From Tethya wilhelma (Eukaryota; Porifera; Demospongiae; Tethyida; Tethyidae), in the NCBI GenBank assembly GCA_964030475.1, contig CAXIPT010000007.1, positions 4,669,607 to 4,733,606 of the forward strand: 64,000 nt of DNA, read 5' to 3'. The translations under genes were made by a program, and so were the position numbers. Under the pieces are notes generated by a model, which saw only the letters and a list, made by a program, of their open reading frames with translations, did no database searches and was not told where the DNA came from. Below are positions 9,712 to 35,201 of the stretch, one piece after another. Each line of letters starts with the position of its first letter. Position 1 is the stretch's first letter.

Positions 9712-9744
<33 letters not shown>

Positions 9745-10235
9745 CTTTTTTTTCTCCAGTTTTGTTATTCAAATGGGGGGAGCGTAGAAACTAGGCTGGC
9801 AGTATATTGTTTGCAACATCTGTTGACACTGTCAGTACTTTTGTATCTAACCTTGGATCAGTGTTTGTCTCAGACTTGACCTTGTCTTGAGACAGGAAAT
9901 GTTGTTTATTTGTGCCATCTTTACCATATGTTAGATTTCAAGCTTTTGTCTCCTACAAATGTTCTCTCCTGTCAGTTTCAAGGATTACAAAAATCTGTAA
10001 GTGGACACATTATAAGCTGCACTGTGCATTGCACTCCTGGATTATTGTGTGGTAAAACATAAACATCTTTTGTTTCTCTTCTCTTTTCTTGATGTCTTCA
10101 GGCTCTCCATGAGTTGGATGTTTGTAGAGGGTTTCTCTTCACTCAGCCAGAGAGGGTGTTCAACTTGTCCTCCAAAGCTGAGCTCCTACCACCAGGATGG
10201 GAAGACACTGTACAAGTTGCTGACCTCAAGGTGAG

Positions 10236-10286
<51 letters not shown>

Positions 10287-11673: not shown

Positions 11674-12642
11674 GTGAGCAGATCCTCGTAGGAATCTGTA
11701 GCTGCATGGAGATGGTTTGCCGTTGTATGCTTCAAAATTGGGTCATTGGTATGATATCAGTAGATACATGATTTGGTGGATATACAGTAATTTGAGATTT
11801 TTTTGCGCTAGAAATATTCCTTACTTTTAATATCCACGTGTTTAATTTTCGTACTTTAGTAAATACAGCAGTAATGTGCTACATGTATGTTGGTAAATGT
11901 TGTCAAAATTTGACATGGTGACACGTACAGAAATTTTCCCAATGTTAATAGTGGTATTAGCAGGTTGTAAGAGCTATGTAGCAAAAAATTTTGAATCATA
12001 CACGGGTAATTATCTAATTATTAATGCTTCACTGGGATCAAAAGTCTTGATCTACTAAAAAAGTTGTCTTGATCGACAGTAAACAAAGTCCTTGATCCTT
12101 CAAACCAGCTCCTCAAGCTCTTTATCAGTAAACTTGGACTCTTATGCACAGCTACATATGTAATGTACAGGATCCATTAATATGACCTCACGTGTGAGTG
12201 ATGCGTTGCTCAATAGTTGTCAAGTTGAATTCAACTGGAGATTGGTTTTGCCCGAATATCATCAGTTTTATGGATGAATGTTACTTTGGTGTTCACCTAC
12301 TGTATGTACACTGCTCCTTTATGTGACATGTTACTGGTGCTGGATTCTCACTCGAGGTATGTATAAGCTGTGTGCAGGGATGGGCATATAGTATGATAAT
12401 TGCATCATGATGATGCTTTACTAGATGTTATATATAGCTACCAAGGATAATTATTTAGCTCTGATTATCTATGCTCAGTCCTGCATTATCATAGAGCTCA
12501 CTCAAACCGTATAATTTCTATTAAAACACGTCTACGAAATTTTGAAATTATAATTGGAAAGTTGGTCTTGACCACAAAGTGCCGGAATTCTAAGCTTTCT
12601 TTGTGTTAGTTTTCGTGTTGTTCTGTGTCAGCAGTGTTAGCC
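11674..12642. other. Start of ELYS intron 13, no gene seen
   Basis: AT-rich sequence without recognisable coding potential. Directly before 12643, CTAAGCTTTCTTTGTGTTAG matches the leader found before other TRIM copies. Confidence 0.5.
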
Positions 12643-14177
12643 ATGGCCTCAAATGGGACCGTGCATGGTGAAGCTAGCTCTGTAAAAGCCGAAGTAGAGG
12701 TCGCCATTGCTCAAGGAGAGATGGCCAAGCAGCGTGTACAAGCCAAGCAGAAGGCCGTGGATGAAGAGATCAAGAGCTCTTTTCAAAGCATCTATGAAGC
12801 TCTTCGTGCTCGTGAAGAAGCCCTGTTAGCCAAGAGTGCCGAGATTGCTCGTGGAAAATGCACAGCTGTCATTGAAATACCTATGAAGTGCCAAACTGAA
12901 TTGCTCTCTGATACTGATGGTGCAAAGGGTTCGAAGCTTCAAGATACTCTGAAACAGTTCAAGAGCTGCATCCTTGAGCCTTGTATAAATGATATGGTGC
13001 CTGGAACCTCTCTGGACAACACCGATCTAATAAGAGAAGTCTCTTCATTTGGTGTGGTCACTGGAGGGTGCTTCCCAGGTGAGAGTACAGCTGATATCAT
13101 GTACATCCCCTCAGCTGTTATCTGTAAAGAGAGGAAGATGGTGATTACTGCTCGTGACAAGGAAGGCAAGGAGTTCCCTTATGGTGGAGAGAATGTTCGT
13201 GCCGAGTTACGTTTTGTGGGATCACGCAATTCAGTGATGAGTAAGGTCGTGGACAAGGAGAATGGAAAGTATGAAGTGACCTTTACACCCCAGGTGTGTG
13301 GGAAGCATGAGCTCGCCATTACCATTGAAGGACTTCCTATTAAACAAAGTCCATTTGTCATCAATGTAAGACCGGAAGTGATGTACACCTCTCTTATACG
13401 ATATGATACATACAGATGCTCTGCTTACACCTATGACGTTGCTGTCGATGACAATGATGATGTGTATGTTGCTGTATATGGAGCTCACTCCATTGATGTC
13501 TTCAACAAAGATGCCACCAAAATCCGTACTATATTCCAGTCTGGATCGGGAGAAGGCCAGTTCTACTGTCCCAGTGGTATAGCCATCAGAGAAGGCATGC
13601 TCTATATCACTGATAACAGCAACCATCGTGTTATGAAGATGACCACACTGGGAAAATTCATATCAATGTTTGGCTCGGAAGGATCAGGAGCTGGTCAGCT
13701 CAATACTGACACCTAAAAGGATATGTCTTGATCCTGATGGCCAAGTGTTTGTCTCAGAGCATGAGGACAACCGAGTGTCTGTTTTCAGTCCTGATGGAAC
13801 ATTTATCGAACATATCACTGCATGGCGATCTGGACCAACCTTGGGGTGTAACCTTTGACCCCACCAGTAATCTCCATGTTGCTAACTATGGTAGCAACTC
13901 CATCTCTGAGTCAGTGTTCTCTCCTGAAGGCACCTTCATTACCCAGTATGGTAGTGGAGTGATCCAGAAACCAGCTGGTATAGCCATCAATGAAGAGGGA
14001 TACTGTTTCATTGGTGAATACAGTGCTCCCAAGGGTCGTTTGTTTGTGTTGGATCCTTCCCATAAGCTCATCAATACTGTTCAGAATGACAGCTATACAA
14101 GTGGAGTAGCTCTGGGTAGAGATGGCAGTGTGTATGTAGCTGATTATAGTAATTGGGTTATAAAGTATCATCGATAA
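12643..14177 (+). pseudogene. TRIM-NHL copy 1, RING and B-boxes deleted, frameshifted
   Basis: The start region is conserved (GCCATGGCCTCAAAT, MASN) but the sequence jumps at once to the coiled coil (EASSVKAEVEVAIAQGE), so the RING and both B-boxes are gone. A second deletion removes the SMQYEKLKSVHSELSSTSK part of the coiled coil. The filamin and first NHL repeats are open to 13716. A frameshift near 13705 and another near 13835 break the NHL propeller, whose last repeats continue in other frames to YVADYSNWVIKYHR. It could still make a ~357 aa RING-less protein ending early in the propeller, but the two frame changes argue for decay. Confidence 0.8.
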
Positions 14178-14844
14178 TGAACCTTGTTTTTTAGCTCTTA
14201 GTCTATTCTATTGTTTGTTCTTTCTTTGTTACATACTAACAAGTTATTTAAAAAACTACCAATGTTGAGCTAAGAGGGATAGAATGTTATCACGATTTCT
14301 TCACTTATGAATTGTTTTTATGATTAATATATTGTGTCATATATTACGTGTCAACTTTAAATTTTGTTTATCACCTTGTAAATTTGATGCTGCATGATTT
14401 CAGGCAAAAGGTTTTAAGCCATCCCATAGTTTCATACCACTTTGCATCACAATCTAGCTATAGTAGTAATCACTAGGATACTTTCATGACACTAGAACTC
14501 CTCCTACTATAATGATTTTGTTAACCTGCTGGGCAGGATTTCTACTGTGGCATCGATTATCAATTTCAGTCACATATAAATCTAGGTATAGTACCTAAAG
14601 TAAGTGCTTGAGCATTCCACTAGTAAAAATTTCCATATTTACGGTATAAGACTTAGGTAAATGCTTTATTATATCCTTGCTTCTGATCAGTTTGTGTTTA
14701 TTGTCATTTGGCAACAGTATAATATTGTATAGTGAGTGCGAACATGTAAATTTAATTCAAAATTTGCCAATGGCTTATATCTGCTTTCCTGAAACTAAAT
14801 TTCAACCTTCATAGTTAATAACTGTCACAGTCTTTATGTAATGT
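14178..14844. other. Intergenic spacer with an old upstream-module copy
   Basis: AT-rich spacer. A partial copy of the TRIM upstream module lies at about 14520-14610: GATTATCAAT at 14555-14564, then AAATCTAGGTATAGTACCTAAAGTAAG-like sequence. It may mark a TRIM copy that has been lost. Confidence 0.45.
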
Positions 14845-15064
14845 ATAGTTTGTGTGTCTGTTTTAAATAGTTCCTGAAGTTGGTTGTGGTTACTACAGTG
14901 GTATTGATTATCAATACCTATCTACATTTACATGTGACCATTTATACATGCATGTCTTGTAGATTTAGGGGTGGTATCAAGTACAGGTCCAAAGAAAGTG
15001 ACTTTTTCAGTTTTCCAAGGTTTTTTAGTCAGTGTTAGTACTATTTGTGTCAATAGTTTCAGCC
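14845..15064 (+). promoter_or_regulatory. Shared upstream module of TRIM copy 2
   Basis: Contains in order: TAGTTTGTGTGTCTG, CCTGAAGTTGGTTGTGGTTAC, ATTGATTATCAAT (14903-14915), CATGTGACC, ATGCATGTCTTGTAGATTTAG, GTCAAAG-like and CAGTTTTCCAAG, then the start context GCCATGG. The same series precedes copies 3, 5, 7 and 8. Function is inferred from conservation and position. Confidence 0.6.
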
Positions 15065-17275
15065 ATGGCCTCAAATGTGTTGTCCTCTGCTACTTGTGGT
15101 CTGTGTTCTGAGCTCTTCACTGATCCACGTATGCTCCAGTGTCTTCACTCGTTCTGTTTGAACTGCCTCAAGAAACACTTTGAAGAACAAGAGGTGAAAT
15201 CCAACCCTAAATGTCCCACTTGCAAGAAAGTCATCTCCATTCCAGAGGGAGGGGTGGAGGCCATTCAAAAAGACCTCCATGCCAGCTATGAAGCTGAAGT
15301 AGCTCTCTATCAGGAGAAGGTCAAGGGTCAAGCTGACATTAGCTGTGATATGTGTGTTAACACATCTAATGGTCCTGCTGTTTCATTCTGCTGCAACTGC
15401 TGTGAATTTTTGTGTAAAGTTTGCACCACTCACCATCAATCCTGGAGGAAGACCCTCAATCACGAGCTCATTGAAGTTGGTGAGAAAAAGTCAAAAGCTC
15501 CAAGCTCCAGTACCATATTGAAGAGTGTCTCCCAGAGGCCAATGTATTGCCAGCTACATGGAGATGAGACTTTGAAGTTCTTCTGTCTCACTTGTAGCAC
15601 TCTGATCTGTCGTGACTGTGCTGATGATGAGCATTCTGATCACAAACGCAGTAGAATTGAGAAGGTTGCCGAAAGTGAGAAGAAAGAGTTGCTTTCAGTC
15701 CTTGATGAAGCTAACTCTGTCAAAGCCAAGCTAGAGGATGCCATGGCTCAAGGTGAGAAGACCATGCAAAATGTACAAGCCAAGCAGAAGGCTGTGGATG
15801 AAGAGATCAAGAGCTCATTTCGTACCATCTATGAAGCTATTCATGCTCGTGAAGCAGCCCTGTTAGCCAGTAGTGCTGAGATTGCTCTTGGGAAACGCAC
15901 AGCTCTCAGCATGCAGTATGATAAGCTAAAATCAGTTCACAGCGAACTATCATCCACATCCAAGGTGATAGCTGAAGCCACTAAAGCTTATAGTGCTGCA
16001 GAAATGCTGTCTGCTAAAGGCACAATAACTTCCAAACTTCAAGACACCCTGGAACTGTTCAAAAGCTGTGACCTTGAGCCTTGTAAGAATGAAATGATGG
16101 CTACATCTCTGGACAACACTGAGCTGATAAGAGAAATCTCTTCATTTGGTGTCGTCACTGGAGGGTGCTTCCCAGGTGAGAGTACAGCTGATATCGTGTA
16201 CATCCGCTCAACTGTCATTGGTAAAGAGAGGAAGATGGTGATTACTGCTCGTGACAAGGAAGGCAAGGAGTTCCCTTATGGTGGAGAGAATGTTTATGCT
16301 AAGATGCGTCTCATGGGATTACATGATCCACCAGTGATGGGTGGAGTAGTGGACAAGTAGAATGGAAGGTATGAGGTGACCTTAACACCCCAGGTGTGTG
16401 GGGAGCATGAGCTAGCCATCACCATTGGAGGAGCTCCTATCAAACAAAGTCCATTCATCATCAATGTGAGACAAGACAAGAACTATGCCTCTAACTCAGG
16501 ACCTCAGACAACCTTTAGTTGTGCTAGCAGCACCTATGATGTTGCTGTTGATGATAATGGTGATGTGTATGTTGCTGTATGGGGAAATCACTGCATATCT
16601 GTCTTCAATAAAAGTGGTACTAGCATTCGTACCATTGGAACTGCAGGCCAGTCTGGAGCAGGGGAAGGTCAGTTCAATTCTCCCAGTGGTATAGCCATCA
16701 GAGAAGGTGTGCTATATATTGCTGAGCAAAGCAGCCATCGTGTTCAGGAGATGACCACATCTGGAAAATTCATATCAATGTTTGGCTCACAAGGATCTGG
16801 AGCTGGTCAGCTCAACTGCCCTCAAGGAATATGTCTTGATCCTGATGGCCGAGTGTTTGTCTCAGAGTATAGAAACAATCGAGTGTCTGTTTTCAATCCT
16901 GATGGAACATTTATCAAACACATCACTGGCAATCTTCACAGGCCTTGGGGGTTGACCTTCGACCCCACTGGTAACCTCCATGTTGCTAGCTATGGCAGTC
17001 ACTCCATCTCAGTGTTCTCTCCTGAAGGCACCTTCATCTCTCAGTATGGTAGTGGAGTGATCCAGAGACCAGCTGGTATAGCCATCAATGAAGAGGGATA
17101 CTGTTTCATTGGTGAATGGAATAGCACTAGCAGTCATTTGTTTGTGTTGGATCCTTCCCATGAGCTCATCAATACTGTTCAGAACTTGAATTATGCTGGT
17201 GGAATAGCTCTGAATAAAGATGGTAGTGTCTTTGTAGCTGATCGTAGTAATCAACGTGCTCTTCAGTATTGGTGA
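15065..17275 (+). pseudogene. TRIM-NHL copy 2, full length with one internal TAG
   Basis: From MASN (15065) to LQYW-stop (17275) it is 2211 nt, exactly the length of intact copies 3, 5 and 7. The only lesion is TAG at 16358-16360, where paralogues have GAG (VDKENG) in the filamin domain. RING, B-box 1, B-box 2 and coiled coil are intact, and all six NHL repeats are open after the stop. It would make a 431 aa protein lacking the rest of the filamin domain and the propeller, unless the stop is read through or is an allele or sequencing error. Alternatively the downstream frame (16376-17275) could be used separately, but it lacks a good start. Confidence 0.85.
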
Positions 17276-18310
17276 GAGCTATTGTTGGTCTGTTTTCTGA
17301 TGAGTCTTGTCTCTGATAATTGTTTACTTGAAGTTTTATTGATTTGATTTTTTTAAAAAATAATAAAACTGACATTTAGTGTGTAAATAATTTCTTTGTT
17401 TACAGTTTATATGACTTATATCTGACCTACTATTAGATAGAGCCGCTAATGTACAAATTGTAACTTACTCCATATCTTTTTTGTATCCATGACACCCTGG
17501 GAACAAACTGGCAAGACATAAGAGAGAGGGGGATTCAATAATTTCTGTTTGTGGGGATCATTTTTTTGTTTTTGTAATCAGTAACTATATTTCTGCTTTT
17601 CTCAGACCAACCCCTTAATTATGATAGTCATTATTATGGTAGTTTGTGTGTCTGTATGTAATAAATAGTCTCTCTTTGTTTTCATTCCTTTGAGAGTTGG
17701 TTGTACATGGTGGCTAATTAAGGTTGCCTAATTGATTATCAATCTCATTTTTGATGATAAAAGTTGGTAAAGGTCATCATGGCAATGAGCCAAGCATGAA
17801 CTCCATCGTATGGTCATTTTCCAGGATCGAATTTTAGTAACAGTTAAAATGGAAATTTTAGATGGTCAATAGCAGCTCTAACTACAAATCAAACGTATAG
17901 GAGACACCACCCCCTGTTAGATAACCTAGGAAATTTCCCTTCCCCCCTCCCCTCCCACTATATAATTAATGCCCACCTTCGTCGGACTATAGCCTGCATG
18001 TCTCGCAATACGTGCAGAACTCTATAGTTGATGTGTCGGTATCACTAATAACTGTTTTTTTTTTTTTTTTTTAACTGTTCACTAATGACTAATTTCTTTC
18101 TTTGTTTGGTTTTGTACCTCTAGGAATTGATTGTGGCTGCATGGGTTACCATGACAATTAATGAATATCAATTAATCCAAATTTAATCTATAAATATGAT
18201 TAAGATTTAGGGGTGGTACCTGAAATCAAAGTTTGAAAAAACTGCATGTAGTTGTGTTTTCCAGGCTTTCTTTGTCAGTTTTTGTGCTATCAGTATCAAA
18301 AGTTTCAGCC
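17276..18310. promoter_or_regulatory. Spacer with two upstream-module copies before TRIM copy 3
   Basis: A module copy at about 17640-17760 includes GATTATCAAT at 17734-17743. A more diverged one at about 18120-18230 (AATGAATATCAATTAATCC, then ATTTAGGGGTGGTACCTGAAA) leads into copy 3. A poly-T run lies at 18055-18072. Confidence 0.5.
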
Positions 18311-20521
18311 ATGGCCTCAAATGTGTTGTCCTCTGCTACTTGTGGACTGTGTTCTGAGCTCTTCACTGATCCACGTATGCTCCAGTGTCTTCACTCCTTC
18401 TGTTTGAAATGCCTCAAGAAACACTTTGAAGAACAAGAGAAGAAATCCAACCCTAAATGTCCCACTTGCAAGAAAGTCATCTCCATTCCAGAGAGAGGGG
18501 TGGAGGCCATTCAAAAAGATCTTCATGCCAGCTATGAAGCTGAAGTAGCCCTCTATCAGAAGAAGGTCAAGGGTCAAGCCAACATTAGCTGTGATATGTG
18601 TGTTAATACATCCAATGGTCCTGCTGTTTCATTCTGCTGCAACTGCTGTGAATTTCTGTGCAAAGTTTGCTCCAATCACCACCAATCGTGGAGGAAGACC
18701 CTCAATCACGAGCTCATTGAAGTTGGTGAGAAAAAGTCAAAAGCTCCAAGCTCCAGCACTATTTTGAAGAGTGTCTCCCAGAGACCAATGTATTGCCAGC
18801 TACATGGAGATGAGACTTTGAAGTTCTATTGTCTCACTTGTGGTACTCTGATCTGTCGGGACTGTGCTGTTGATGAACATGCTGATCACAAACGCAGTAG
18901 AATAGAGAAAGTAGCAAAAAATGAGAAGAAAGAGTTACTTTCTGTCCTTGATGAGGCTAACTGTGTGAAAGCCAAGCTAGAAGTTGCAATGACTCAAGGT
19001 GAGAAGGCCTTACAGCGTGTACAAGCCAAACATAAGACTGTGGATGAGGAGATTAAGAGCTCATTTCGTACCATCTATGAAGCTGTTCGTGCTCGTGAAG
19101 CAGCCCTGTTAGCCAAGAGTGCTGAGATTGCTCTTGGGAAACAAACAGCTCTCAGTATGCAGCATGAAGAGCTGAAATCAGTTCACAGCGAACTATCATC
19201 CACATCCAAGGTGATAGCTGAAGCCGCTAAAGCTTATAGTGCTGCAGAAATGCTGTCTGCTAAAGGCGCAATGACTTCTAAACTTCAAAACACCTTGGAA
19301 CTTTTCAAGAGTTGTGACCTTGAACCATGTAAGAATGAAATAATACCTACCTCTCTAGACAACACTGAGCTGATAAGAGAAATCTCTTCATTTGGTGTCG
19401 TCACTGGAGGGTGCTTCCCAGGTGAGAGTACAGCTGATATCGTGTACATCCCCTCAGCTGTCGTTGGTAAAGAGAGGAAGATGGTGATTACTGCTTGTGA
19501 CAATGAAGGCAAGGAGTTCCCTTATGGTGGAGAGAGAGTTCGTGCTAAGTTGCGTCTCATGGGATCACATGATCCACCAGTGATGGGTGGAGTAGTGGAC
19601 AAGGAGAATGGAAGGTATGAGTTGACCTTAACACCCCAGGTGTGTGGGGAGCATGAGCTAGCCATCACCATTGGAGGAGCTCCTATCAAACAAAGTCCAT
19701 TCATCATCAATGTGAGACAAGACAAGAACTATGCCTCTAACTCAGGACCTCAGACAACCTTTAGTTGCTCTAATGAGGTATGTGGTGTTGCTGTTGATGA
19801 CAATGGTGATGTGTATGTTGCTGTTAGTAAATCTCACTGCATATCTGTCTTCAATAAAAGTGGTACTAACATTTGTACCATTGGAACTGCCAACCAGTCT
19901 GGATCAGGTGAAGGCCAGTTTAATTATCCAAATGGTATAGCTATCAGAGAAAGTGTCCTCTATATTTCTGATCAAAACAACCATCGTGTTCAGAAGATAA
20001 CTACATCTGGGAAATTCATATCAATGTTTGGCTCACAAGGATCAGGAGCTGGTCAGCTCAACTGCCCTCGAAGAATATGTCTTGATCCTGATGGCCGAGT
20101 GTTTGTCTCAGAGTATAACAACAACCGAGTGTCTGTGTTCATTCCTGATGGAACATTTGTCAAACACATCAGTGGCAACCTTAGCAAGCCTTGGGGTGTA
20201 ACCTTTGACCCCACTGGTAATCTTCATGTTGCTAACAATGCCAGTAACTCCATCTCAGTGTTCTCTCCTGAAGGCACTCTCATCTCTCAGTATGGTAGTG
20301 GGGTGATCCAGAAACCAGCTGGTATAGCCATCAATGAAGAGGGATATTGTTTCATTGGTGAATGGAACCACATTAGTAGTCGTTTGCTTGTGTTGGATCC
20401 TTCCAACAAGCTCATCAATACTGTTCAGAACTTGAATTACGCTGGTGGAATAGCTCTGAGTAAAGATGGTAGTGTCTTTGTAGCTGATTATGGCAATAAA
20501 CGTGCTCTTCAGTATTGGTGA
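18311..20521 (+). CDS. TRIM71-like RING/B-box/filamin/NHL protein, copy 3 (intact)
   Basis: 736 aa, single exon, start MASN at 18311 in a GCCATGG context; the frame is open upstream to 18233 but paralogues agree on MASN. RING C3HC4: C11, C14, C26, H28, C31, C34, C50, C53. B-box 1: C94, C97, C117, C120, H124, H133. B-box 2: C162, H165, C174, C177, C182, C185, H190, H193. Coiled coil ~195-330, filamin/ABP280 repeat ~380-470 and six NHL repeats ~490-736 ending LQYW. This is the C-VII TRIM architecture of TRIM71/LIN-41, TRIM2/3 and Brat-like proteins. Those RING domains act as E3 ubiquitin ligases, and the NHL propeller binds RNA or protein. Orthology to one vertebrate TRIM is not implied; this is a sponge-specific tandem set. 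Confidence 0.93.
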   Translation: MASNVLSSATCGLCSELFTDPRMLQCLHSFCLKCLKKHFEEQEKKSNPKCPTCKKVISIPERGVEAIQKDLHASYEAEVALYQKKVKGQANISCDMCVNTSNGPAVSFCCNCCEFLCKVCSNHHQSWRKTLNHELIEVGEKKSKAPSSSTILKSVSQRPMYCQLHGDETLKFYCLTCGTLICRDCAVDEHADHKRSRIEKVAKNEKKELLSVLDEANCVKAKLEVAMTQGEKALQRVQAKHKTVDEEIKSSFRTIYEAVRAREAALLAKSAEIALGKQTALSMQHEELKSVHSELSSTSKVIAEAAKAYSAAEMLSAKGAMTSKLQNTLELFKSCDLEPCKNEIIPTSLDNTELIREISSFGVVTGGCFPGESTADIVYIPSAVVGKERKMVITACDNEGKEFPYGGERVRAKLRLMGSHDPPVMGGVVDKENGRYELTLTPQVCGEHELAITIGGAPIKQSPFIINVRQDKNYASNSGPQTTFSCSNEVCGVAVDDNGDVYVAVSKSHCISVFNKSGTNICTIGTANQSGSGEGQFNYPNGIAIRESVLYISDQNNHRVQKITTSGKFISMFGSQGSGAGQLNCPRRICLDPDGRVFVSEYNNNRVSVFIPDGTFVKHISGNLSKPWGVTFDPTGNLHVANNASNSISVFSPEGTLISQYGSGVIQKPAGIAINEEGYCFIGEWNHISSRLLVLDPSNKLINTVQNLNYAGGIALSKDGSVFVADYGNKRALQYW

Positions 20522-20667
20522 GAGTGAACCTTGTTTAGTGATATCTCTATTAGTCTCTGATTGTTTAGTTGATCGATTTGTTAATTTTAAGCAAAATAAC
20601 AACATTTACGTTTAATTCGTGAATAATTATTTTGTTTACCATGATTTCTTATATATATTAATGATAG

Positions 20668-21396
20668 TAGAACCTATGATGTTGCTGTTGATGACAACGG
20701 TGATGTGTTTGCATGTTGCTGTGTATGGATCCCATTGCATATTTGTCTTCAATAAAAGTGGTACTAACATCCGTACTATTGGAACTGCTGGCCAGTCTGG
20801 AACAGTGGAAGGTCAGTTCAATTATCCAAGTGGTATAGCCATCAGAGAGAGTGTGCTCTATATATTGCTGATTAAGGCAACCATTGTGTTCAAAGGATGA
20901 CCACATCTGGGAAATTCCTATCAATGTTTGGCTCACAAAGATCAGGAGCTGGTCAGCTATGCAACCCTCGAGGAATATGTCTTGATCCTGATGGCTGAGT
21001 GTTTGTGTCAGAGTATAGCAACAACCGAGTATCAGTTTTCAGTCCTGATGGAGCATTTATTAAATATATCACTGGCAATCTTAGCAATCGTTGAAGTGTA
21101 ACCTTTGACCTCTTTGATAATCTTCAGGTTGTCACTTCATCTCAGTGTTCTCTCCTGATAGCACCTTCATTTCTCAGTATGGTAGTGGGGTGATCCAGAA
21201 ACCAGCTGGAATAGCCGGATACTGTTTCATTGGTGAATGGAATGCCGATACCAGTCATTTGCTTGTGTTGGATCCTTCCCATAAGCCCATCAATGCTGCT
21301 AGGAACTTGGATTATGCTGGTGGAATAGCTCTGAGCAGAGATGGTCGTGTCTTTGTAGCTGATTGTGGTAATAAACATGCTTTTCAGTATTGGTGA
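20668..21396 (+). pseudogene. TRIM-NHL copy 4, NHL-only relic
   Basis: Only the propeller portion remains, starting at the YDVAVDDNGD block. Several lesions: an extra base near 20710, a TGA where paralogues have GGCCGAGTG (about 20995), a deletion near 21130 and loss of INEE near 21213. The end LALSRDGRVFVADCGNKHAFQYW-like block keeps the family terminus at 21396. Confidence 0.85.
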
Positions 21397-21405
21397 GAGC
21401 TATAG

Positions 21406-21750
21406 TTGATCTACAATTCCATGGGTACACCTGAAATCACTGCATGGAAGAGAGGGAGAACAATGGCCATTGATGGAGACACATTGGAATTTCTCTTGCA
21501 AATAGTTCCTGATCCAGAACCGTATGTTGTTGGTGATACCAGCCTGCTACAGTTTAAGCAGCAGTTCGTTGTGTGGAACCCTGTTGAAGGCCTTCCTGTA
21601 TGTAATCTAAGTAAATTACATCACACATGCATGTGCTGCTGTTGCCATTAAGGTAGACGTGAACTTTGCACAGGAACAGCAAAAGCTGCTGAACAGGAGA
21701 GTGGCCCTGTCTGAAGCCAAATTGGTTGCTGGATATATTGTCTCATGATC
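21406..21750 (+). other. Orphan exon-like ORF pair, unknown
   Basis: Two short open stretches with protein-like composition sit right after TRIM copy 4: 21418-21599 (GTPEITAWKRGR...DGDTLEFLLQIVPDPEPY...VVWNPVEGLP), ending at a donor-like CCT|gtatgt, and about 21652-21745 (VDVNFAQEQQKLLNRRVAL), preceded by an acceptor-like ATTAAG. They could be two exons of a fragmentary gene. I do not recognise the domain. Confidence 0.3.
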
Positions 21751-23290: not shown

Positions 23291-23499
23291 GAGTATCTAT
23301 CTTCCTAGCCTTTTGCAATCCCGAATTGATTGTTCTGATATGTGAGGACAAATGGCTTTAATCGCTTTAGAAGTGCATTCAAGATCTTTTTTGAGGCGTT
23401 TTAGCCTACTAGTGCCCTTTCTGCATTTATTAATACCATACTGTACTAATATAAGAAAACCAACCAATGCATGACCTCAATAGACAAAGGTCAATTATG

Positions 23500-23690
23500 T
23501 CCTACCTCGTCTGGACACTGATTATGAATCCCAATCTACATGGCCATTGCACAATGTCATGTGACTTAGTAATAATACATGCATGTCATGTAGATCTAGG
23601 GGTAATACCCAAAGTATATAAAGGTCAAAAGAAAAGCAGTCTCAGGTTTTGTTCAGTTTTCCAAGCTATCTTTGTGTCAATAGTTTAGCC
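23500..23690 (+). promoter_or_regulatory. Upstream module of TRIM copy 5
   Basis: Contains TGATTATGAATCCCAATCTAC (a diverged palindrome block), ATGTGACTTAG, GCATGTCATGTAGATCTAGGGG, GTCAAAAGAAAAG and CAGTTTTCCAAGC, then GCCATGG. A TATAAAG-like string is at about 23617-23623. Confidence 0.5.
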
Positions 23691-25901: not shown

Positions 25902-26563
25902 GAGCTAGTTGGCCTTTTTTCTGATATATCTGATAATTGTTTGGTTGATCTTAATTTTTTTTTTTTTTTTGTAGAAAAGTACTGATATTTAGTGTATGCA
26001 TGAATAATTTCTTTGTTGACTATTTGATTTCTGACATACTATTGTACGAATTGTAACTTATTTCATTATCTTCATGACTTGTAACTAGATATATACTTTA
26101 AACTCTCTGCCCCATTCCCATTATATGTCTTATTACTTTGTTACATGCTATGTCTATATCAACCACATGATGAATCTTGTACAAGGTATCATGCTTCAAT
26201 TATATCTGTTAACAGAGTTGGTCCGAGAAAAGCAAAAATAATGGTTCCAGATATAAATTTGACAAAACCAAAATTTGACCATCAAATCGGCAAATTTTCC
26301 ACCCCCTCAAATTTTTGGATAGTCATAATAGTAGTTAGTTAGTGTGTCTGTATGTAGTAGGCTCTCTTTAGTTTTGCTCCTTTGAGAGTTGGTTGTACAT
26401 GGTGGCTAATTAATGTGGCCTAATTGATTATCTACATGTGACTTACATGTTGATCTAGTCTTAGAGGTAGTATGTCATATGTAATAAGTATAATGGCTAT
26501 ATGTAAAGCAAAGGTTTGTGTATACCAAGATATATACACTAGTATATATATATGTGTATATCT
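25902..26563. other. Intergenic spacer with module copy
   Basis: 3' flank shared with other copies, then an upstream-module copy at about 26335-26470 (GTGTGTCTGTATGTAGTAGGCTCTC, AATTGATTATC, ACATGTGACTTACATG). A TATATA-rich stretch at 26528-26562 precedes relic copy 6. Confidence 0.45.
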
Positions 26564-26784
26564 CTCAATATATGGTAGTGGGGTGATCCAGTATCCAGCT
26601 GGTATAGTCATCAATGAAGAGGGGTACTGTTTCAGTGGTGAATACAACTGCACTAGCAGCCGTTTGCTTGTATTAGATCGTCCTCATAAGCTGATCAATA
26701 CTGTTCAGAACTAATGGAATAGTTGTGAGTAGAGAGTGTCTTTGTGGCTGATCGTAATAATAACCATGCTATTTAGTATTGGTG
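26564..26784 (+). pseudogene. TRIM-NHL copy 6, last NHL repeats only
   Basis: Starts at the ISxYGSGVIQ block (YGSGVIQYPAGIVINEEG), keeps EYNCTSSRLLVLD, then stops after TVQN (TAA). The final blade follows out of frame to the family terminus SIGE-like end. A clear decayed fragment. Confidence 0.8.
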
Positions 26785-27120
26785 AGAGTGAACCCGCATG
26801 ATTTGCCAAGTTTTAGTTTTTGTTTCCATTTGAATATAAAAATAAAGACATGAGCTTAGATGGATGATTTTTTGAGTTACCATGTAATATTAAAATGATG
26901 CTGTTCTAACTGTATTTATATTGTGTCTTTTCCTATCTTGTTTGTAAGACCTCCTTTAACTTAAACTTGATGTTACTAGAACCTTGGGAAATGTTTCATA
27001 GTTATTACACTGTATAACATAATACCCTTGTTTTTTATCTGTTTGTATTTACTAAGATTTATATCTACCCTCCTGAAACTATAACCTTCCAAAGTTAATA
27101 ACAGTCTGTATTATAGTGGT

Positions 27121-27348
27121 GTAGTTTGTGTATCTGTATCCAATAGTCTCTGTTTGGTTTTGTTCTTCCTGAAGTTGGTTATGGTTACTACAGTGGTATT
27201 GATTATCAATCCCAATCTACATGCACATGTGACTTACATGCATGTCATGTAGATCTAGGGGTAGTACCTGAAGTAAAGAAACTCTTATTGTTCAGTTTCC
27301 AAGCTTTCTTTGTCAGTATTAGTACTATTTGTGTCAATAGTTTCAGCC
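27121..27348 (+). promoter_or_regulatory. Upstream module of TRIM copy 7
   Basis: The clearest copy: GTAGTTTGTGTATCTG, CCTGAAGTTGGTTATGG, ATTGATTATCAAT (27198-27210), CCCAATCTACATG, ATGTGACTTACATG, GTCATGTAGATCTAGGGG, GTACCTGAAGTAAAG, CAGTTTCCAAGCTTTC, then GCCATGG. Confidence 0.6.
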
Positions 27349-29559
27349 ATGGCCTCAAATGTGTTGTCCTCTGCTACTTGTGGACTGTGTTCTGAGCTCT
27401 TCACTGATCCACGTATGCTCCAGTGTCTTCACTCCTTCTGTTTGAACTGCCTCAAGAAACACTTTGATGAACAAGAGGTAAAATCCAACCCTAAATGTCC
27501 CACCTGCAAGAAAGTCATCTCCATTCCAGAGGGAGGGGTGGAGGCCATTCAAAAAGACCTTCATGCTAGCTATGAAGCTGAAGTAACTCTCTATCAGGAG
27601 AAGGTCAAGGGTCAAGCCAACATTAGCTGTGATATGTGTGTTAACACATCCAATGGTGCTGCTGTTTCATTCTGCTGCAACTGCTGTGAATTTCTCTGCA
27701 AAGTTTGCACCACTCACCACCAATCCTGGAGAAAGACCCACAATCACGAGCTTGTTGAGGTTGGTGAGAAAAAGCCACAAGCCTTCAGCTCCAGCACCAT
27801 TTTGAAGAGTGTCTCCCAGAGGCCGATGTATTGCCAGCTACATGGAGATGAGACTTTGAAGTACTACTGTCTCACTTGTGACACTCTGATCTGTCGTGAC
27901 TGTGCCGACTTCGTACATACTGGTCATGAACGTAATCTGATCACAAGTGTGGCAGAAAATGAGAAGAAAGAGTTGCTTTCTGTCCTTGATGAAGCTAACT
28001 CTGTCAAAGTCAAGCTAGAGGATGCCATGGCTCAAGGTGAGAAGGCCATGCAACGTGTACAAGCTAAACAGAAGGTTGTGAATGAAGAGATCAAGAGCTC
28101 ATTTCAAAGCATCTATGAAGCTGTTCGTGCTCGTGAAGCAGCCCTGTTAGCCAAGAGTTCTGAGATTGCTCTTGGGAAATGCACAGCTCTTAGCATGCAG
28201 TATGAAAAGCTGAAATCAGTTCACAGTGAACTGTCATCCACATCCAAGGTGATAGCTGAAGCCACTAAAGTCTACAGTCCAGCCGAAATGCTCTCTGCTA
28301 AAGGTGCAATGACCTCCAAACTTCAAGACACCTTGGAACAGTTCAAGAGTTGTGACCTTGAACCATGCAAGAATGAAATAATGCCTACCTCTCTAGACAA
28401 CACTGAACTGATAAAAGAAATCTCTTCATTTGGTGTGGTCACTGGAGGGTGCTTCCCAGGTGAGAGTACAGCTGATATCATGTACATCCCTTCAGCTGTC
28501 ATTGGTAAAGAGAGGAAGATGGTGATTACTGCTCGTGACAAGGAAGGCAAGGAGTTCCCTTATGGTGGAGAGAATGTTTATGCTAAGTTGTGTCTCATGG
28601 GATCACATGATCCATCAGTGATGGGTAGAGTAGTGGACAAGGAGAATGGAAAGTATGAAGTGACCTTTACACCCCAGGTGTGTGGGGAGCATGAGCTAGC
28701 CATTACCATTGGAGGAGCTCCTATCAAACAAAGTCCGTTCATCATCAATTTGAGACAAGACAAGAACTATGCCTCTACCTCAGGACCTCAAAGAACCTTT
28801 AGTTGTGCTAGCAGCACCTATGATGTTGCTGTTGATGACAATGGTGATGTGTATGTTGCTGTATATGGATCTCACTGCATATCTGTGTTCAATAAAAGTG
28901 GTCGTAACATCCGTACTATTGGAACTGCAGGTCAGTCTGGAGCAGGGGAAGGTCAGTTCAATTGTCCCAGTGGTATAGCCATCAGAGAAGGTGTGCTTTA
29001 TATTGCTGATAAAAGCAACCATCGTGTTCAGAAGATGACCACATCTGGGAAATTCCTATCAATGTTTGGCTCAAAAGGATCAGGAGCTGGTGAGCTCTAC
29101 GTACCTCGAGGAATATGTCTTGATCCTGATGGCCGAGTGTTTGTCTCAGAGAATAGCAACAACCGAGTGTCTGTTTTCAGTCCTGATGGAACATTTATGA
29201 AACACATCACTGGCAATCTTAGCAGTCCTTGGGGTGTAACCTTTGACCCCACTGGTAACCTCCATGTTGCTAACTGTGGTAGTCACTCCATCTCAGTGTT
29301 CTCTCCTGAAGGCAGCTTCATCTCTCAGTATGGTAGTGGGGTGATCCAGAGTCCAGCTGGTATAGCCATCAATGAAGAGGGATACTGTTTCATTGGTGAA
29401 TGGAACTACACTAGCAGTCGTTTGCTTGTGTTGGATCCTTCCCATAAGCTCATCAATACTGTTCAGAACTTGAATTATGCTGGTGGAATAGCTCTAGGTA
29501 AAGATGGTAGTGTCTTTGTGGCTGATTATAACAATAAACATGCTCTTCATTATTGGTGA
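27349..29559 (+). CDS. TRIM71-like RING/B-box/filamin/NHL protein, copy 7 (intact)
   Basis: 736 aa from MASN (27349) to LHYW. RING and both B-boxes keep all zinc ligands. At the end of B-box 2 the usual DDEHADHKRSRIEKV is replaced by DFVHTGHERNLITSV (about 27903-27950); both histidines are kept, but the patch is far more diverged than anything around it. Coiled coil, filamin and six NHL repeats are open. Same single-exon layout and Kozak context as copies 3 and 5. Confidence 0.92.
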   Translation: MASNVLSSATCGLCSELFTDPRMLQCLHSFCLNCLKKHFDEQEVKSNPKCPTCKKVISIPEGGVEAIQKDLHASYEAEVTLYQEKVKGQANISCDMCVNTSNGAAVSFCCNCCEFLCKVCTTHHQSWRKTHNHELVEVGEKKPQAFSSSTILKSVSQRPMYCQLHGDETLKYYCLTCDTLICRDCADFVHTGHERNLITSVAENEKKELLSVLDEANSVKVKLEDAMAQGEKAMQRVQAKQKVVNEEIKSSFQSIYEAVRAREAALLAKSSEIALGKCTALSMQYEKLKSVHSELSSTSKVIAEATKVYSPAEMLSAKGAMTSKLQDTLEQFKSCDLEPCKNEIMPTSLDNTELIKEISSFGVVTGGCFPGESTADIMYIPSAVIGKERKMVITARDKEGKEFPYGGENVYAKLCLMGSHDPSVMGRVVDKENGKYEVTFTPQVCGEHELAITIGGAPIKQSPFIINLRQDKNYASTSGPQRTFSCASSTYDVAVDDNGDVYVAVYGSHCISVFNKSGRNIRTIGTAGQSGAGEGQFNCPSGIAIREGVLYIADKSNHRVQKMTTSGKFLSMFGSKGSGAGELYVPRGICLDPDGRVFVSENSNNRVSVFSPDGTFMKHITGNLSSPWGVTFDPTGNLHVANCGSHSISVFSPEGSFISQYGSGVIQSPAGIAINEEGYCFIGEWNYTSSRLLVLDPSHKLINTVQNLNYAGGIALGKDGSVFVADYNNKHALHYW

Positions 29560-30699
29560 GAGTGAACCTTGCTTATTGATATCTCTAGTCTCTGATTGTT
29601 TAGTCGATCGATTTGTTTAATTTTAACAAAATAAAACATTGACGTTTAGTCTATGAATAATTTTTTGTTCACCATGATTTCTTACATAGATAATGTATAT
29701 ATTGTATTTTTCCCCTTTTTGTTTAAATCTTTTTGTAGGACTCTCGGAACTTGAAAAGTTTGAAATAATTTTTTCCGCTATAATTTTGTTTTGTTTGTTA
29801 GCTATAATAATATTACATGAAGACCCTTATAGTTTTGAAAGCTCTCTTGAAACTCATAAATGTGTTTTTGTTAACTGGAATTTAATTTAAGGTTTGATGG
29901 TCAAAATTGGAAGTATTTGGTCCACAGTATTGTACATGTAACATGCATGCACATGTATGAATGCCAGCTGTCAAATTTGTATTTTATTTCTTCCTGTCTT
30001 GGACCAATTAGCTGCCGAATTTAATGACAGTGGCTAATTATGGTAGTCTACTTTGTGTGTCTGTGTATGTATATTGGCTCTCTCTGGTTTCATTCTTATG
30101 AGAGTTGATTGTACATAGTGGCTAATTCATTTGGCATTGATTATCAATCTCAATCTACATGTGACCTGCATGTTAATCTATAGGGTTAGTATGTATAATG
30201 GCTTCGTAAAGCATTCGATTGAATGTTAAAAAAAGTCCATTTTCAAACATACCACAGAATATACAATATACATGGTTGGGCAAGCATGCATCATAATGTT
30301 CATCCTGAGGAGTTAATGGCAAAATCATGTAATACACTATATACTGTAATAATTTTCATGTTACATATAAAATATTATTTGTATGGATGTATGTACGCCA
30401 ATAGTTAAGTGTCAGTCTCTATGCACACATACTTGTCACCTCATGCCGAGAAAGGCCTTGGGAATGAGGCTATCTGTATTACCCAAAGAAGTATAATAGG
30501 CTTCCAATTTTGGTTGTGGTTACTATACAATAGGCAGATTATTAATCCCGTGCAATCTACACAGTCAATGACATGTGACTTGCATATATATAGATCTAGG
30601 AGGTAGTACCTAAAGTAAGGTCAAAAGAAAAATGACTCATTCAGTTTTCCAAGCTTTTCTTTGCCACTTTTAGTGTTGTTAATGTCAATAGTTGTATCC
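29560..30699. promoter_or_regulatory. Spacer with two upstream-module copies before TRIM copy 8
   Basis: After the shared 3' flank, a module copy at about 30041-30192 (GATTATCAAT 30139-30148, CAATCTACATGTGACC) and a second, rearranged copy at about 30500-30660 (TTGGTTGTGGTTACTA, GTGCAATCTAC, ATAGATCTAGGAGG, CAGTTTTCCAAGC). Between them is a lone CCTTGGGAATGAGGCTA repeat end near 30458. Confidence 0.5.
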
Positions 30700-31430
30700 A
30701 TGGCCTCAAATGTGTTGTCCTCTGCTACTTGTGGACTGTGTTCTGAGCTCTTCACTGATCCACGTATGCTCCAGTGTCTTCACTCCTTCTGTTTGAACTG
30801 CCTCAAGAAACACTTTGAAGAACAAGGGATGAAATCCAACCCTAAATGTCCCACTTGCAAGAAAGTCATGTCCATTCCAGAGGCAGGGGTGGAGGCCATT
30901 CAAAAAGACCTTCATGCTAGCTATGAAGCTGAAGTAGCTCTGTATCAGGAGAAGGTCAAGGGTCAAGCTGACATTAGTTGCGATCAGTGCGTCAATAATT
31001 TCAATGGTCCTGCTATTTCATTCTGCTGCAACTGCTGTGAGTTTCTCTGCCAGGTTTGCACCAATCACCATCAATCCTGGAGGAAGACCCTCAATCACGA
31101 GATTGTTGAGGTTGGTGAGAAAAAGTCACAAGCTGTAAGCTCCAGCACCATTTTGAAGAATTTCTCACAGAGGCCAATGTATTGCCAGCTACATGAAGAT
31201 GAGACTTTGAAAATCTTCTGTCTCACTTGTGGTACTCTGATCTGTCGTGACTGTGCTGATGATGAGCATGCTGATCATAAACGCAGTAGAATAGAGAAAG
31301 TAGCTGAAAATGAAAAGAAAGAGTTGCTTTTAGTCCTTGATGAAGCTAACTCTGTCAAAGCCAAGCTAGAGGATGCCATGGCTCAAGGTGAGAAGACCAT
31401 ACAACGTGTACAAGCCAAGCAGAAGGCCGT
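30700..31430 (+). CDS. TRIM71-like protein, copy 8, N-terminal part up to a single-N joint
   Basis: 243 codons from MASN cover RING, B-box 1, B-box 2 and the start of the coiled coil, all open with intact zinc ligands. B-box 1 begins CDQCVNNFNGPA, unlike CDMCVNTSNGPA elsewhere. At N 31431 the sequence switches from coding (AKQKAV) to intergenic upstream-module DNA, so the gene is cut at an assembly join. The missing part may be the copy at 33113-34702, but the two overlap by about 30 residues of coiled coil, so they may be two genes. Confidence 0.8.
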
Positions 31431-31431
31431 N

Positions 31432-32497
31432 GTGTTTCCTTGTCGATGTTTAATTTCTCCTTTATTTTTGTTCAACCCCTCCTATTTAGTTACTGCAATA
31501 TTTTACGGTATAGAGTAGTTTTTGTGTCTGTATATCTATTAATAGGCTCTTTTTAGTTTTACTCTTTTGCACGAGAGTTGTTTGTAGTTGCTAATTCATG
31601 TGGCATTACTATGATAATCATTATCAATCTCATTCTACATGTGACTTATGTGTTGATCTGGGGGTAGTATTTAAAGACCTTACCGTAAGGCTAGTTTTAA
31701 TTGTGTAGTGTAATTATTACATTTTTGTCATTTAGAATGTAATAAATGCATTAGTGTTTATGTGCGGTGCGCTATAAATAGAGTTATAGTATTACACGTC
31801 AATTGTAGATGTGGTATTCAAGAGATGACAAATGGAGGTAATGCCGCTGTGCTCAAGTGTTATAACTTCTCTGAGAGAGAACGCTTGCATGATGATTGCT
31901 CGATTTGGTTGGAGGTAGGTAGGTGTGAACTCGACTGAGGCTTGAAATAGCAATTAATGAAGAGATATCGTTGCAATATAGCTGGATCATTGGCTGAATG
32001 AACATAGCACATGTTTGAGTCACTAAAATAATAACAAATTACGTCGTAGACGGTATTTTTTTGCGTATCAAATGAATGTGATTTCCAGAAAAATTTGCAA
32101 TTCGGAATTCAGCTCTCACAATTGCAAAGGTTGAGAAAAACTTGTTTTCTAAGATACCAGTATACATTGGGTGAGCATTACAGTGTATCCATCCTTTAGG
32201 GAGTTCAATGTAATGTATGCACCTACTTGCTCAGTGCACATTAAAGGCGCACACTGCATTCAGAGACGAGAAAAATTACTCAAGATGCTAGACTTGAAGA
32301 TCTTATATAAAGTTTGTCAAAGAGCAAAGATATAGCGTCTGAGTTCAGTTCTTAACAAGAATCAAGTCTAATTATTTTAAGAGAATGCCGAAGTGTAAGG
32401 ATAGATATCCCTAGCTGTCCTGAAAGAGAAGCTATTTTTGGCTCCATACAATTTACTCACTCATGCTCACCTCATAATGCTGTGTATTGTTTCTCAT
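31432..32497. other. Spacer with module-like sequence, no gene
   Basis: 31505-31680 resembles the TRIM upstream module (TTTTTGTGTCTGTATATC, AATCATTATCAATCTC, CATGTGACTTATG). 31690-32490 is AT-rich without recognisable content. Confidence 0.45.
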
Positions 32498-32785
32498 AAC
32501 TATGGTAGTAACTCCATCTCAGTGTTCTCTCTTGAAGGCACCTTCATCTCTCAGTATGGTAGTGGGGTGATCCAGAGACCAGCTGGTATAGCCATCAATG
32601 AAGAGGGATACTGTTTTATTGGTGAACTTAACAATACTAGCAGTCATTTGCTGGTGTTGGATCCTTCCCATAAGCTCATCAATACTGTTCAGAATTTCTA
32701 CAATATAGCTGGAATAGCTCCGAGTAGAGATGGTAGTGTCTTTGTGGTTGATCGTAATAATAACCGTGCTCTTCAGTATTGGTGA
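32498..32785 (+). pseudogene. TRIM-NHL fragment, last ~95 residues
   Basis: Open from NYGSNSISVFSLEG to LQYW with no upstream part of the gene; it contains about the last 2.5 NHL repeats. Preceding DNA is unrelated. An end fragment, either deleted or misplaced by assembly. Confidence 0.8.
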
Positions 32786-33112
32786 GTGTGAACCTGATTT
32801 GTCAATTTAGGTTTTTGTTTCATTTGAATTTAAAAAAGACATGTACTTTAGTTGGTGAATGATTTTTAAGTAACCAATCTTAAAGTAGTACTGTTCTAAC
32901 TGTATTTTTACAAGTATAGTAAAAATTTTATAAAAATTAGAAGTGTAGGAATGGGCAGTGCGGTAAAAAGCAATGAAACAAGGTAAGTCTCTGAATTTCG
33001 GCACATGACTACTTCATTTTTTGAGTCAATTGCAATTTGAATTCCATCATTATAGTGTCAGTCATTTGGCTNNNNNNNNNNNNNNNNNNNNNNNNNNNNN
33101 NNNNNNNNNNTA

Positions 33113-34702
33113 GCCGAAAATGAGAAGAAAAAGTTGCTTTCTTTCCTTGATGAGGGTAACTCTGTCATAGCCAAGCTAGAGGATGCCATGGCTCAAAATC
33201 AAAAGGCCATGCAACGTGTACAAGCCAAGCAGAAGGCTGTGGATGAAGAGATCAAGAGTTCATTTCGTACCATCTATGAAGCTGTTCGTGCTCGTGAAGC
33301 AGCCCTGTTAGCCAAGAGTGCTGAGATTGCTCTTGTGAACTGTACAGCTCTCAGCATGCAATATGATAATCTGAAATCAGTTCACAGCGAGCTATTATCC
33401 ACATCCAAGGTGATAGCTGAAGCCACTGAAACATACAGCCCAGCAGAAGTTCTCTTTGCAAAAGGCACAATGACTTCCAAACTTCGAAATACTCTTGGAG
33501 AGTTTAATAGCTGTGACCTTGAGCCTTGTAGGAATGAAAAGATGCCTACCTCTCTGGACAACACTGAACTGATAAAAGAAATCTCTTCATTTGGTGTTGT
33601 CACTGAAGGGTGCTTCCCAGGTGAGAGTACAGCTGATATCGTGTACATCCCCTCAGCTGTCGTTGGTAAAGAGAGGAAGATGGTGATTACTGCTCGTGAC
33701 AAGGAAGGCAAGGAGTTCCCTTATGGTGGAGAGAATGTTCATGCTAAGTTGCGTCTCATGGGATCACATGATCCACCAGTGATGGGTGGAGTAGTGGACA
33801 AGGAGAATGGAAGGTATGAGGTGACCTTTACACCCCAGGTGTGTGAGGAGCATGAGCTAGCCATCACCATTGGAGGAGCTCCTATCAAACAAAGTCCATT
33901 CATCATCAATGTAAGACAAGACAAGAACTATGCCTCCACCTCAGGACCCCAAAGAACCTTTAGTTGCTCTGGTAACACCTACGATGTTGCTGTTGATGAC
34001 AATGGTGATGTGTATGTTGCTGTACATGGATCTCACTGCATATCTGTCTTCAATAAAAGTGGTACTAACATCCGTACTATAGGAACTGCCAACCAGTCTG
34101 GAGCAGGGGAAGGTCAGTTCAATTCTCCCAGTGGTATAGCCATCAGAGAAGATGTGCTCTATATTGCTGAGGAAAGCAACCATCGTGTTCAGAAGATGAC
34201 AACATCTGGGAAATTTTTATCAATGTTTGGCTCACAAGGATCAGGAGCTGGTCAGCTCGACAAACCGCGAGGATTATGTCTTGATCCTGATGGCCGAGTG
34301 TATGTCTCAGGTAACAGCAACCGAGTGTCTGTTTTCAATCCTGATGGAACATTTATCAAACACTTCACAGGCAACCTTGGCTATCCATGGGGTGTAACCT
34401 TTGACCCCACAGGTAACCTCCATGTTGCTAACTTTGTCCGTAGATCCATCTCAGTGTTCTCTCCTGAAGGCACCTTCATCTCTCAGTATGGTAGTGGGGT
34501 GATCCAGAATCCAGCTGGTATAGCCATCAATGAAGAAGGATACTGTTTCATTAGTAAATGGTGTAATCATATTTTTGTGCTTGATCCTTCCCATAAACTC
34601 ATCAATACAGTTCAGAACTTGAGTGCAGCTGGAATAGCTCTGAGTAGAGATGGTAGTGTCTTTGTAGCTGATCGTGGTAATAAATGTGCTCAGTATTGGT
34701 GA
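33113..34702 (+). CDS. TRIM71-like protein, copy 9, C-terminal part after an N gap
   Basis: The frame opens immediately after the 39-base gap (33072-33110) with AENEKKKLLSFLDEG and runs 529 residues to AQYW. Coiled coil, filamin (VTEGCFPG, CEEHELAI) and six NHL repeats are open. Small in-frame deletions shorten propeller loops (VSGNSNRV; FISKWCNHIFVLD; NLSAAGIA), so the surface differs from copies 3, 5 and 7. RING and B-boxes are absent from the assembly, probably lost in the gap. A full gene is likely but unproven. Confidence 0.8.
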   Translation, partial: AENEKKKLLSFLDEGNSVIAKLEDAMAQNQKAMQRVQAKQKAVDEEIKSSFRTIYEAVRAREAALLAKSAEIALVNCTALSMQYDNLKSVHSELLSTSKVIAEATETYSPAEVLFAKGTMTSKLRNTLGEFNSCDLEPCRNEKMPTSLDNTELIKEISSFGVVTEGCFPGESTADIVYIPSAVVGKERKMVITARDKEGKEFPYGGENVHAKLRLMGSHDPPVMGGVVDKENGRYEVTFTPQVCEEHELAITIGGAPIKQSPFIINVRQDKNYASTSGPQRTFSCSGNTYDVAVDDNGDVYVAVHGSHCISVFNKSGTNIRTIGTANQSGAGEGQFNSPSGIAIREDVLYIAEESNHRVQKMTTSGKFLSMFGSQGSGAGQLDKPRGLCLDPDGRVYVSGNSNRVSVFNPDGTFIKHFTGNLGYPWGVTFDPTGNLHVANFVRRSISVFSPEGTFISQYGSGVIQNPAGIAINEEGYCFISKWCNHIFVLDPSHKLINTVQNLSAAGIALSRDGSVFVADRGNKCAQYW

Positions 34703-35201
34703 GAGCGAACCTTGTCTTGTGATCTTTAGTCTTTAATTGTTTTAAAATTAAAATAATACTGATGTTTAGGTTAAAAATTTTTTTAGTTATATACCGTGAT
34801 TTTTACACAAATGATGTACCATTTTGTAACTTTATTGTGATGCCCTGTGAACTTGATTTCAGTTAAATTTTTCCCTAGTATAGTTTCTTATTGTCCTGTT
34901 TGGAATAATTAATAATTCTAACTCTTATTAAGCATTTCCTGATTACTGTATATAAATCGTAAAAAAGTTATAGTTGATTAATTTTCATAGTTGCTGTGGA
35001 CCACAAAAATTAAACAGCATAAAGAATTGCAAAATAGTGGGCGGGGCTGCATAACCCAGCAATGCTACAAAATTATCCAACACAAAAATAACGTACAATA
35101 AATTTCTAACATGAAAATTTCACGATTTACAGTGTGCTCTTACTTACTGTATAGCTATATGAAATTTTGTTTGTTGACCATGATATTTTCCCTCTCTCTA
35201 G
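34703..35201. mobile_element. Diverged MITE copy and end of ELYS intron 13
   Basis: About 34975-35135 resembles the element at 36903-37084 (shared TTGCAAAATAGTGGG, GGGGCTGCATAAC, TTTCACGATTTAC). It is older and its ends are degraded. The ELYS acceptor follows at 35200-35201. Confidence 0.5.

Follow-up and report, generated by a model that had tools for sequence, protein, structure and literature searches.

Sequence evidence for a TRIM-NHL gene cluster nested in one intron of the ELYS nucleoporin gene of a sponge

In the sponge Tethya wilhelma, the gene for the nucleoporin ELYS appears to be interrupted by a row of TRIM-NHL genes, which raises the question whether this is indeed one gene with a gene family residing in a single intron, and whether the residents are working genes. 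The locus was analysed in a window of 64,000 nucleotides (C7:4669607-4733606, from an assembly of 124.6 Mb in 204 contigs, labelled C1, C2, C5, C7 etc.). We hold it likely, with a probability of roughly 80%, that a TRIM-NHL gene entered intron 13 of ELYS and expanded there in tandem, the intact copies being functional and ELYS being transcribed through the array and spliced.

An exon-chaining script placed 13 ELYS exons 5' and 15 exons 3' of the gap that holds the TRIM-NHL copies, but three small, weakly supported exons (35629-35936) were removed, as solved ELYS chains can be aligned without them, which leaves 25. In this final model all borders are GT-AG, and 1,697 stop-free codons are followed by TGA at 41918-41920. 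Exon 13 ends in TTG (followed by GTGAGC) and exon 14 starts with ATG (preceded by CTCTCTAG), and the reading frame is unbroken; the original prediction of an ELYS frame that continues over 23.5 kb, from an exon 13 ending at 11673 to an exon 14 starting at 35202, was thus borne out by splice borders, frame and the domain evidence given below. Intron 13 measures 23,528 base pairs (bp); the remaining 23 ELYS introns have a median length of 163 bp, and the longest of them, created by removing the three exons, has 1,793 bp.

The joined protein matches PF16687 (145.1 bits) and PF13934 (73.9 bits, profile positions 1-218) in one model, in the domain order of ELYS/AHCTF1, i.e. the ELYS beta-propeller followed by the ELYS helical domain. 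When the halves were scanned separately, PF13934 was matched by the 3' half (58 bits, beginning at profile position 54) but not by the 5' half; therefore, intron 13 interrupts this domain. The alignments to two PDB chains titled Protein ELYS (7vci, E-value 4.6e-15, and 7r5j, 3.7e-14; which we take to be the Xenopus and human proteins) cross the join as well. A genome-wide ELYS-bb search gave three matches, each an exon of this one gene, and a frame-by-frame search of the genome for PF13934 gave none, even though the joined model matches, because introns split the domain. No ELYS relatives were found at E <= 0.001 among 7,989 candidates scored in a large protein database, which says nothing on their absence, as this database is supposedly poor in spliced eukaryotic genes. 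Close to the C-terminus a KKRGRG motif was spotted by eye, possibly an AT-hook. ELYS introns 13 and 14 share a 178-bp repeat (76% identical; window 34932-35106 and 36895-37066), and an open frame with GNAT acetyltransferase domains lies upstream of the gene (window 3316-4302, + strand).

At the level of sequence, the nesting of the TRIM-NHL cluster in intron 13 is real, which supports the predicted arrangement of one ELYS gene with TRIM-NHL copies on the host strand inside one intron. With copy 3 as tblastn query, ten TRIM-NHL-homologous stretches were located in intron 13 (Table 1), every one on the + strand: three intact copies of 736 codons, one copy of full length but interrupted by one in-frame stop, and six that are partial or frameshifted. 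The prediction of at least nine same-strand RING/B-box/filamin/NHL copies therefore holds for strand and number of stretches, but only three copies are intact and only five stretches (copies 2, 3, 5 and 6 and the 5' portion of copy 7) carry both RING and B-box according to Pfam. As predicted, the intact copies have no introns in their coding sequence, which is one exon. All three intact copies have Pfam matches to RING, B-box, filamin and NHL, and with the coiled coil (a predicted long helix at residues 198-308 of copy 6) the order is that of the TRIM-NHL proteins (class VII TRIM): RING, B-box, coiled coil, filamin, NHL. The only Ns in intron 13 are a single N at 31431 and the run at 33072-33110, and both match break points of copies, for which reason the copy number near the 3' end is uncertain; given these two broken ends at Ns, the apparent decay of the array may partly be assembly loss. 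Between the copies, LINE-like (long interspersed nuclear element) reading-frame pieces lie on the - strand (window 21619-23304), for which Pfam gave just one weak, sub-threshold endonuclease-reverse transcriptase match (22145-22354).

Table 1. Positions in the window of the ELYS parts, the TRIM-NHL stretches of intron 13 and the candidate promoter element (ORF, open reading frame).
Feature	Position	Strand	Basis
ELYS exons 1-13 (beta-propeller and first portion of ELYS helical domain)	7140..11673	+	gene model, Pfam
ELYS exon 13	11544-11673	+	gene model
ELYS intron 13, host of the array, GTGAGC...CTCTCTAG, 23,528 bp	11674..35201	+	gene model, Pfam, PDB-chain alignment
Copy 1, without RING and B-box, frameshifted	12658..14153	+	tblastn, ORF, Pfam
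Copy 2, full length, one in-frame stop at 16358-16360	15065..17272	+	tblastn, ORF, Pfam
Non-coding element upstream of copy 3, candidate promoter	17606..17746	+	recurrence between copies
Copy 3, intact, 736 codons then stop codon	18311..20518	+	tblastn, ORF, Pfam
Copy 4, NHL fragment, frameshifted	20709..21393	+	tblastn
Copy 5, intact, 736 codons then stop codon	23691..25898	+	tblastn, ORF, Pfam
TRIM-NHL fragment, NHL end, frameshifted	26562..26782	+	tblastn
Copy 6, intact, 736 codons then stop codon	27349..29556	+	tblastn, ORF, Pfam, predicted structure
Copy 7, 5' portion (RING, B-box), stops at assembly N	30700..31431	+	tblastn, Pfam
TRIM-NHL fragment, NHL end, possible 3' end of copy 7	32498..32782	+	tblastn
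Copy 8, open frame from coiled coil to end; 5' portion lost at N run 33072-33110	33113..34699	+	tblastn, ORF, Pfam
ELYS exon 14	35202-35345	+	gene model
ELYS exons 14-25 and stop codon (remaining helical domain, C-terminal tail)	35202..41920	+	gene model, Pfam

The non-coding element upstream of copy 3 (110-140 bp) recurs at 26299-26432, 27098-27211, 30024-30151 and 31515-31625, and weakly (E 0.001) at 14819-14887. Since it is common to the intergenic stretches, tandem duplication is favoured over repeated retroposition. It is possibly a promoter, but as an argument for the copies being transcription units of their own it is only suggestive. Whether ELYS exon 13 could be fused in frame to the acceptor-like AG that immediately precedes the TRIM ATGs was considered, and the idea was rejected because the frames disagree; upstream of the closest relative of the array, a solo gene on C5, no acceptor-like AG was seen.

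Nesting of this kind is found a second time in the genome. A B-box search gave at least 150 matches (150 of 226 candidates were scored, and all matched), which are hits rather than genes, as some reading frames carry two, and the counts are lower bounds. Against the loci that were fetched, copy 3 showed mostly 21-30% identity over long stretches, with 54.9% for the C5 gene. On C1, an intron of ERCC6/CSB holds an intact, same-strand TRIM-NHL frame of 709 codons (6560579-6562705, in a cluster at 6.53-6.57 Mb; B-box by Pfam, other domains judged by eye and by likeness to neighbours), flanked by an ERCC6 exon whose last base is 6555331 (CAG, followed by GTAAGG) and the HRLILSGSP exon at 6563721; the solved protein matches a stitched ERCC6 model across the nesting join (E 1.1e-131). 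Two partial ERCC6 blocks upstream (within C1:6530000-6568000, like the full gene) carry TRIM-NHL copies at the corresponding intron position, and compared with the full gene their host-exon pieces are 88-96% and their longer TRIM pieces 90-93% identical; host exons and nested TRIM-NHL were duplicated together as a block, although the most similar block could partly be a haplotype duplication. The cluster also has an inverted TRIM fragment (~6528440-6529236) and, beyond the final exon of the first block, another TRIM copy.

The idea that every TRIM-NHL array is nested was rejected: the array at C2:10.02 Mb lies past the end of a gene we assume to be ACLY-like, and the one at C7:5.01 Mb past a frame, presumably EP400-like, that ends at a stop (one side judged in each case). 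With nesting in ERCC6 and two arrays non-nested on the judged side, nesting is thus recurrent, perhaps no more often than by chance, but not universal. The inspected loci at C1:24.25, C7:1.13 and C5:6.57 Mb are left unassigned in this tally. An argument from strand bias was discarded, since two independent nestings do not suffice for it. Separately, a B-box/coiled-coil fragment 89.3% identical to copy 3 lies ~9 kb past the ELYS stop (window 50927-51508, + strand), and a 9.8 kb N block (C5:6559202-6568989) lies shortly upstream of the C5 relative.

To place the copies, a tree was made of 23 proteins, i.e. 17 chosen from the best 120 of 271 database matches, five array copies and the C5 gene; it was midpoint-rooted for drawing only, and three distant rows are long-branched. 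The array copies form one clade (100/100), which joins a protein of other source (P0001, 77% identical; 100/99), and the next partner of these together is the pair of the C5 gene and P0002 (100/99). On this midpoint-rooted tree, it seems that the ELYS-array and C5 lineages split before the divergence from the P0001 source, and that the array radiated locally, or was homogenised, after that divergence. Another match (P0105; 78% identity across 54% of the query) was left out of the tree; the P0001 source genome may also carry it, and hence have a cluster of its own. Among the matches listed, four named Halichondria panicea proteins (48-51% identity; TRIM71-like in one source) are relatives of the array genes.

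Pairwise ratios of non-synonymous to synonymous divergence (dN/dS) are 0.28-0.38 for the six pairs of copies 2, 3, 5 and 6 (dS 0.18-0.27) and 0.33-0.50 for the four pairs of these copies with partial copy 8; judged by these ratios, the array copies are overall under purifying selection. The RING cysteine/histidine columns are invariant in a 47-protein alignment that includes the three intact copies; ubiquitin-ligase activity of the latter is a prediction.

The differences between the copies are not spread evenly over the NHL domain. For copy 6, a structure predicted from a 47-sequence alignment (mean predicted local distance difference test score, pLDDT, 87.9; predicted template modelling score, pTM, 0.62) has as best match the zebrafish LIN-41 filamin-NHL with RNA (6fq3, E 7.4e-36, 28% identity), and with strand limits taken from this prediction the differences cluster just before strand 1 and just after strand 2 of each of the six blades. 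At these loop sites (two before strand 1; at the end of strand 2 three, but five in blade 5) 27 of 32 positions are variable, versus 59/224 in the rest of the NHL domain, with dN 0.402 and dS 0.453 versus 0.069 and 0.193. None of 20,000 shuffles reached the observed non-synonymous count at loop sites, while synonymous change was not significantly enriched there (p 0.21). In the ERCC6 cluster (two plus three sites per blade; five copies, one of them truncated mid-NHL and misaligned at its end), 27/30 loop sites versus 81/252 positions elsewhere are variable (dN 0.613 and dS 0.630 versus 0.108 and 0.189; 0/20,000 shuffles, done for non-synonymous change only). By general knowledge of propeller topology, positions before strand 1 and after strand 2 should lie on one face, presumably the RNA-binding face of LIN-41 and Brat (the NHL top face). 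RNA binding by the array NHL domain is conceivable from its likeness to the RNA complex 6fq3. The loop pattern possibly reflects diversifying selection or relaxed constraint.

Taken together, a single-exon TRIM-NHL gene would have arrived in ELYS intron 13 on the host strand, after which tandem duplication would have enlarged the set. For the three intact copies, a working E3-ligase gene is the most likely reading: the RING/B-box N-terminus would transfer ubiquitin and the LIN-41-like filamin-NHL C-terminus would bind targets, with the loops of one face varying and the remainder conserved. Most likely, every intact copy is transcribed from its own promoter and terminated at its own polyadenylation signal, while ELYS transcription would traverse the array and intron 13 be spliced out whole. 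The transcriptional interference that was originally suggested is conceivable. Several points weigh against this account. Six of the ten stretches are broken. dS differs by domain along the array genes, with low values in RING and filamin; this points to gene conversion, by which the ages of the copies are blurred. The loop sites of the ELYS array were chosen after its alignment had been seen, and those of the ERCC6 cluster were placed by eye with three sequences in view, so that the latter is a non-blind replication. Moreover, dN/dS at loop sites is near 1, not above it (0.89 in the ELYS array, 0.97 in ERCC6), and dS is elevated there in both clusters, so that relaxed constraint, alignment error or mutation effects could possibly produce the pattern.

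Part of this could also be expected of a decaying relic without working genes, in which only the ELYS intron matters: counting the single-stop copy, seven of the ten stretches are interrupted, partial or frameshifted, and dN/dS is about 1 at the variable loops. Such a relic is nevertheless unlikely, considering the three 736-codon ORFs that are open with all domains, the pairwise dN/dS values and the invariant RING columns described above.

Still less probable is that the array has split ELYS into separately transcribed 5' and 3' genes. An intron ~144 times the median of the others and an ATG at the very start of exon 14 would fit two transcription units, as would the many sense-strand AATAAA hexamers in intron 13 (19 observed versus 10.3 expected under a first-order model, 9 of them in TRIM coding sequence). 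These hexamers represent opportunity only, by which premature polyadenylation of ELYS is possible, whereas the splice sites of intron 13 are canonical and keep the phase, the two sides of the join belong to a single conserved helical domain for which the ELYS 5' half alone has no Pfam match, and the ELYS model is open throughout.

That scaffolding of separate loci or haplotypes created the nesting or the copy number is highly improbable. Joins in the assembly are marked by lone Ns or short runs of N, two of them within the array and one at window 2494 with identical sequence on either side, as in overlapping contigs joined by N. Yet 11674-31430 is N-free, which ties the ELYS 5' half without a gap to six copies and the beginning of another, just as 33111-35201 ties the 3' half to copy 8. 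Both ELYS parts also keep their order and reading phase, and the dS between copies is far beyond the haplotype level expected from general knowledge. Some other Ns of the window fall in CA/TG repeats.

Elsewhere in the window, a secreted-looking protein family has five members, at 47217-48122 (-), 49427-50380 (-), 56597-57475 (+), 60295-61440 (-) and 63196-63939 (+), with the motif NMSDPTM in all five and GCPSGVDCCTFNSPPWFSVEL in the four longer ones; the two members scanned gave no above-cut-off Pfam match.

If the transcription of an array nested in ELYS is confirmed, the locus offers a natural test of how a long essential mRNA is made through sense-strand genes that carry polyadenylation signals themselves, and also of how a ligase family diversifies within an intron. 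With the ERCC6 case, the arrangement occurs more than once in this genome, and loop-focused differences in two distantly related clusters hint that an early-branching animal may possess a recognition repertoire. It is a doubtful extension that introns of housekeeping genes repeatedly host TRIM-NHL expansion and one-face propeller diversification, which would yield an immune-like ligase repertoire with expression and copy number tied to hosts like ELYS and ERCC6.

Nested genes as such are not new. On sequence and homology evidence the array copies lie wholly between consecutive host exons, as nested intronic genes do, and in the part of the ctenophore study available (PMC8527503) such genes account for 12.24% of the exonic bases in the small genome of Hormiphora californensis, and many share the strand of their host; one host gene is shown with four genes inside it, and nested genes are more frequent in small animal genomes. 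The predicted unusualness of a tandem expansion in an intron of an essential gene is weakened by this commonness and by the ERCC6 nesting. As in Hormiphora californensis, whole genes lie within one host intron on the host strand, but, going by that same part (PMC8527503), the sponge differs in that much of the intron is one locally radiated tandem family and ERCC6 hosts distant members. In titles and abstract openings, with subscription journals thinly covered, no description was found of a TRIM-NHL array in an ELYS intron with relatives in ERCC6, and a tandem TRIM-NHL radiation in a nuclear-pore gene would seem a new combination.

With LIN-41/TRIM71, Brat and Thin the array proteins share the order of RING, B-box, coiled coil, filamin and NHL, and the filamin-NHL of LIN-41 is the best structural match; unlike these, the array family is multi-copy, has a single coding exon and shows loop-focused differences among its copies. 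Identity of the copy 6 model to solved chains is 25-28% for LIN-41/TRIM71, Thin, TRIM2, TRIM3 and Brat and 20% for Mei-P26, and kinship to TRIM71 is meant as likeness, which would not imply orthology. Elsewhere among animals, the available part of PMC3503706 describes tandem duplication as having given rapid expansion of very similar TRIM genes, which it suggests may be linked to the response to external aggressions; the sponge array resembles these expansions in its duplicated, similar genes, and differs, as far as that part goes, in sitting in the intron of a nuclear-pore gene.

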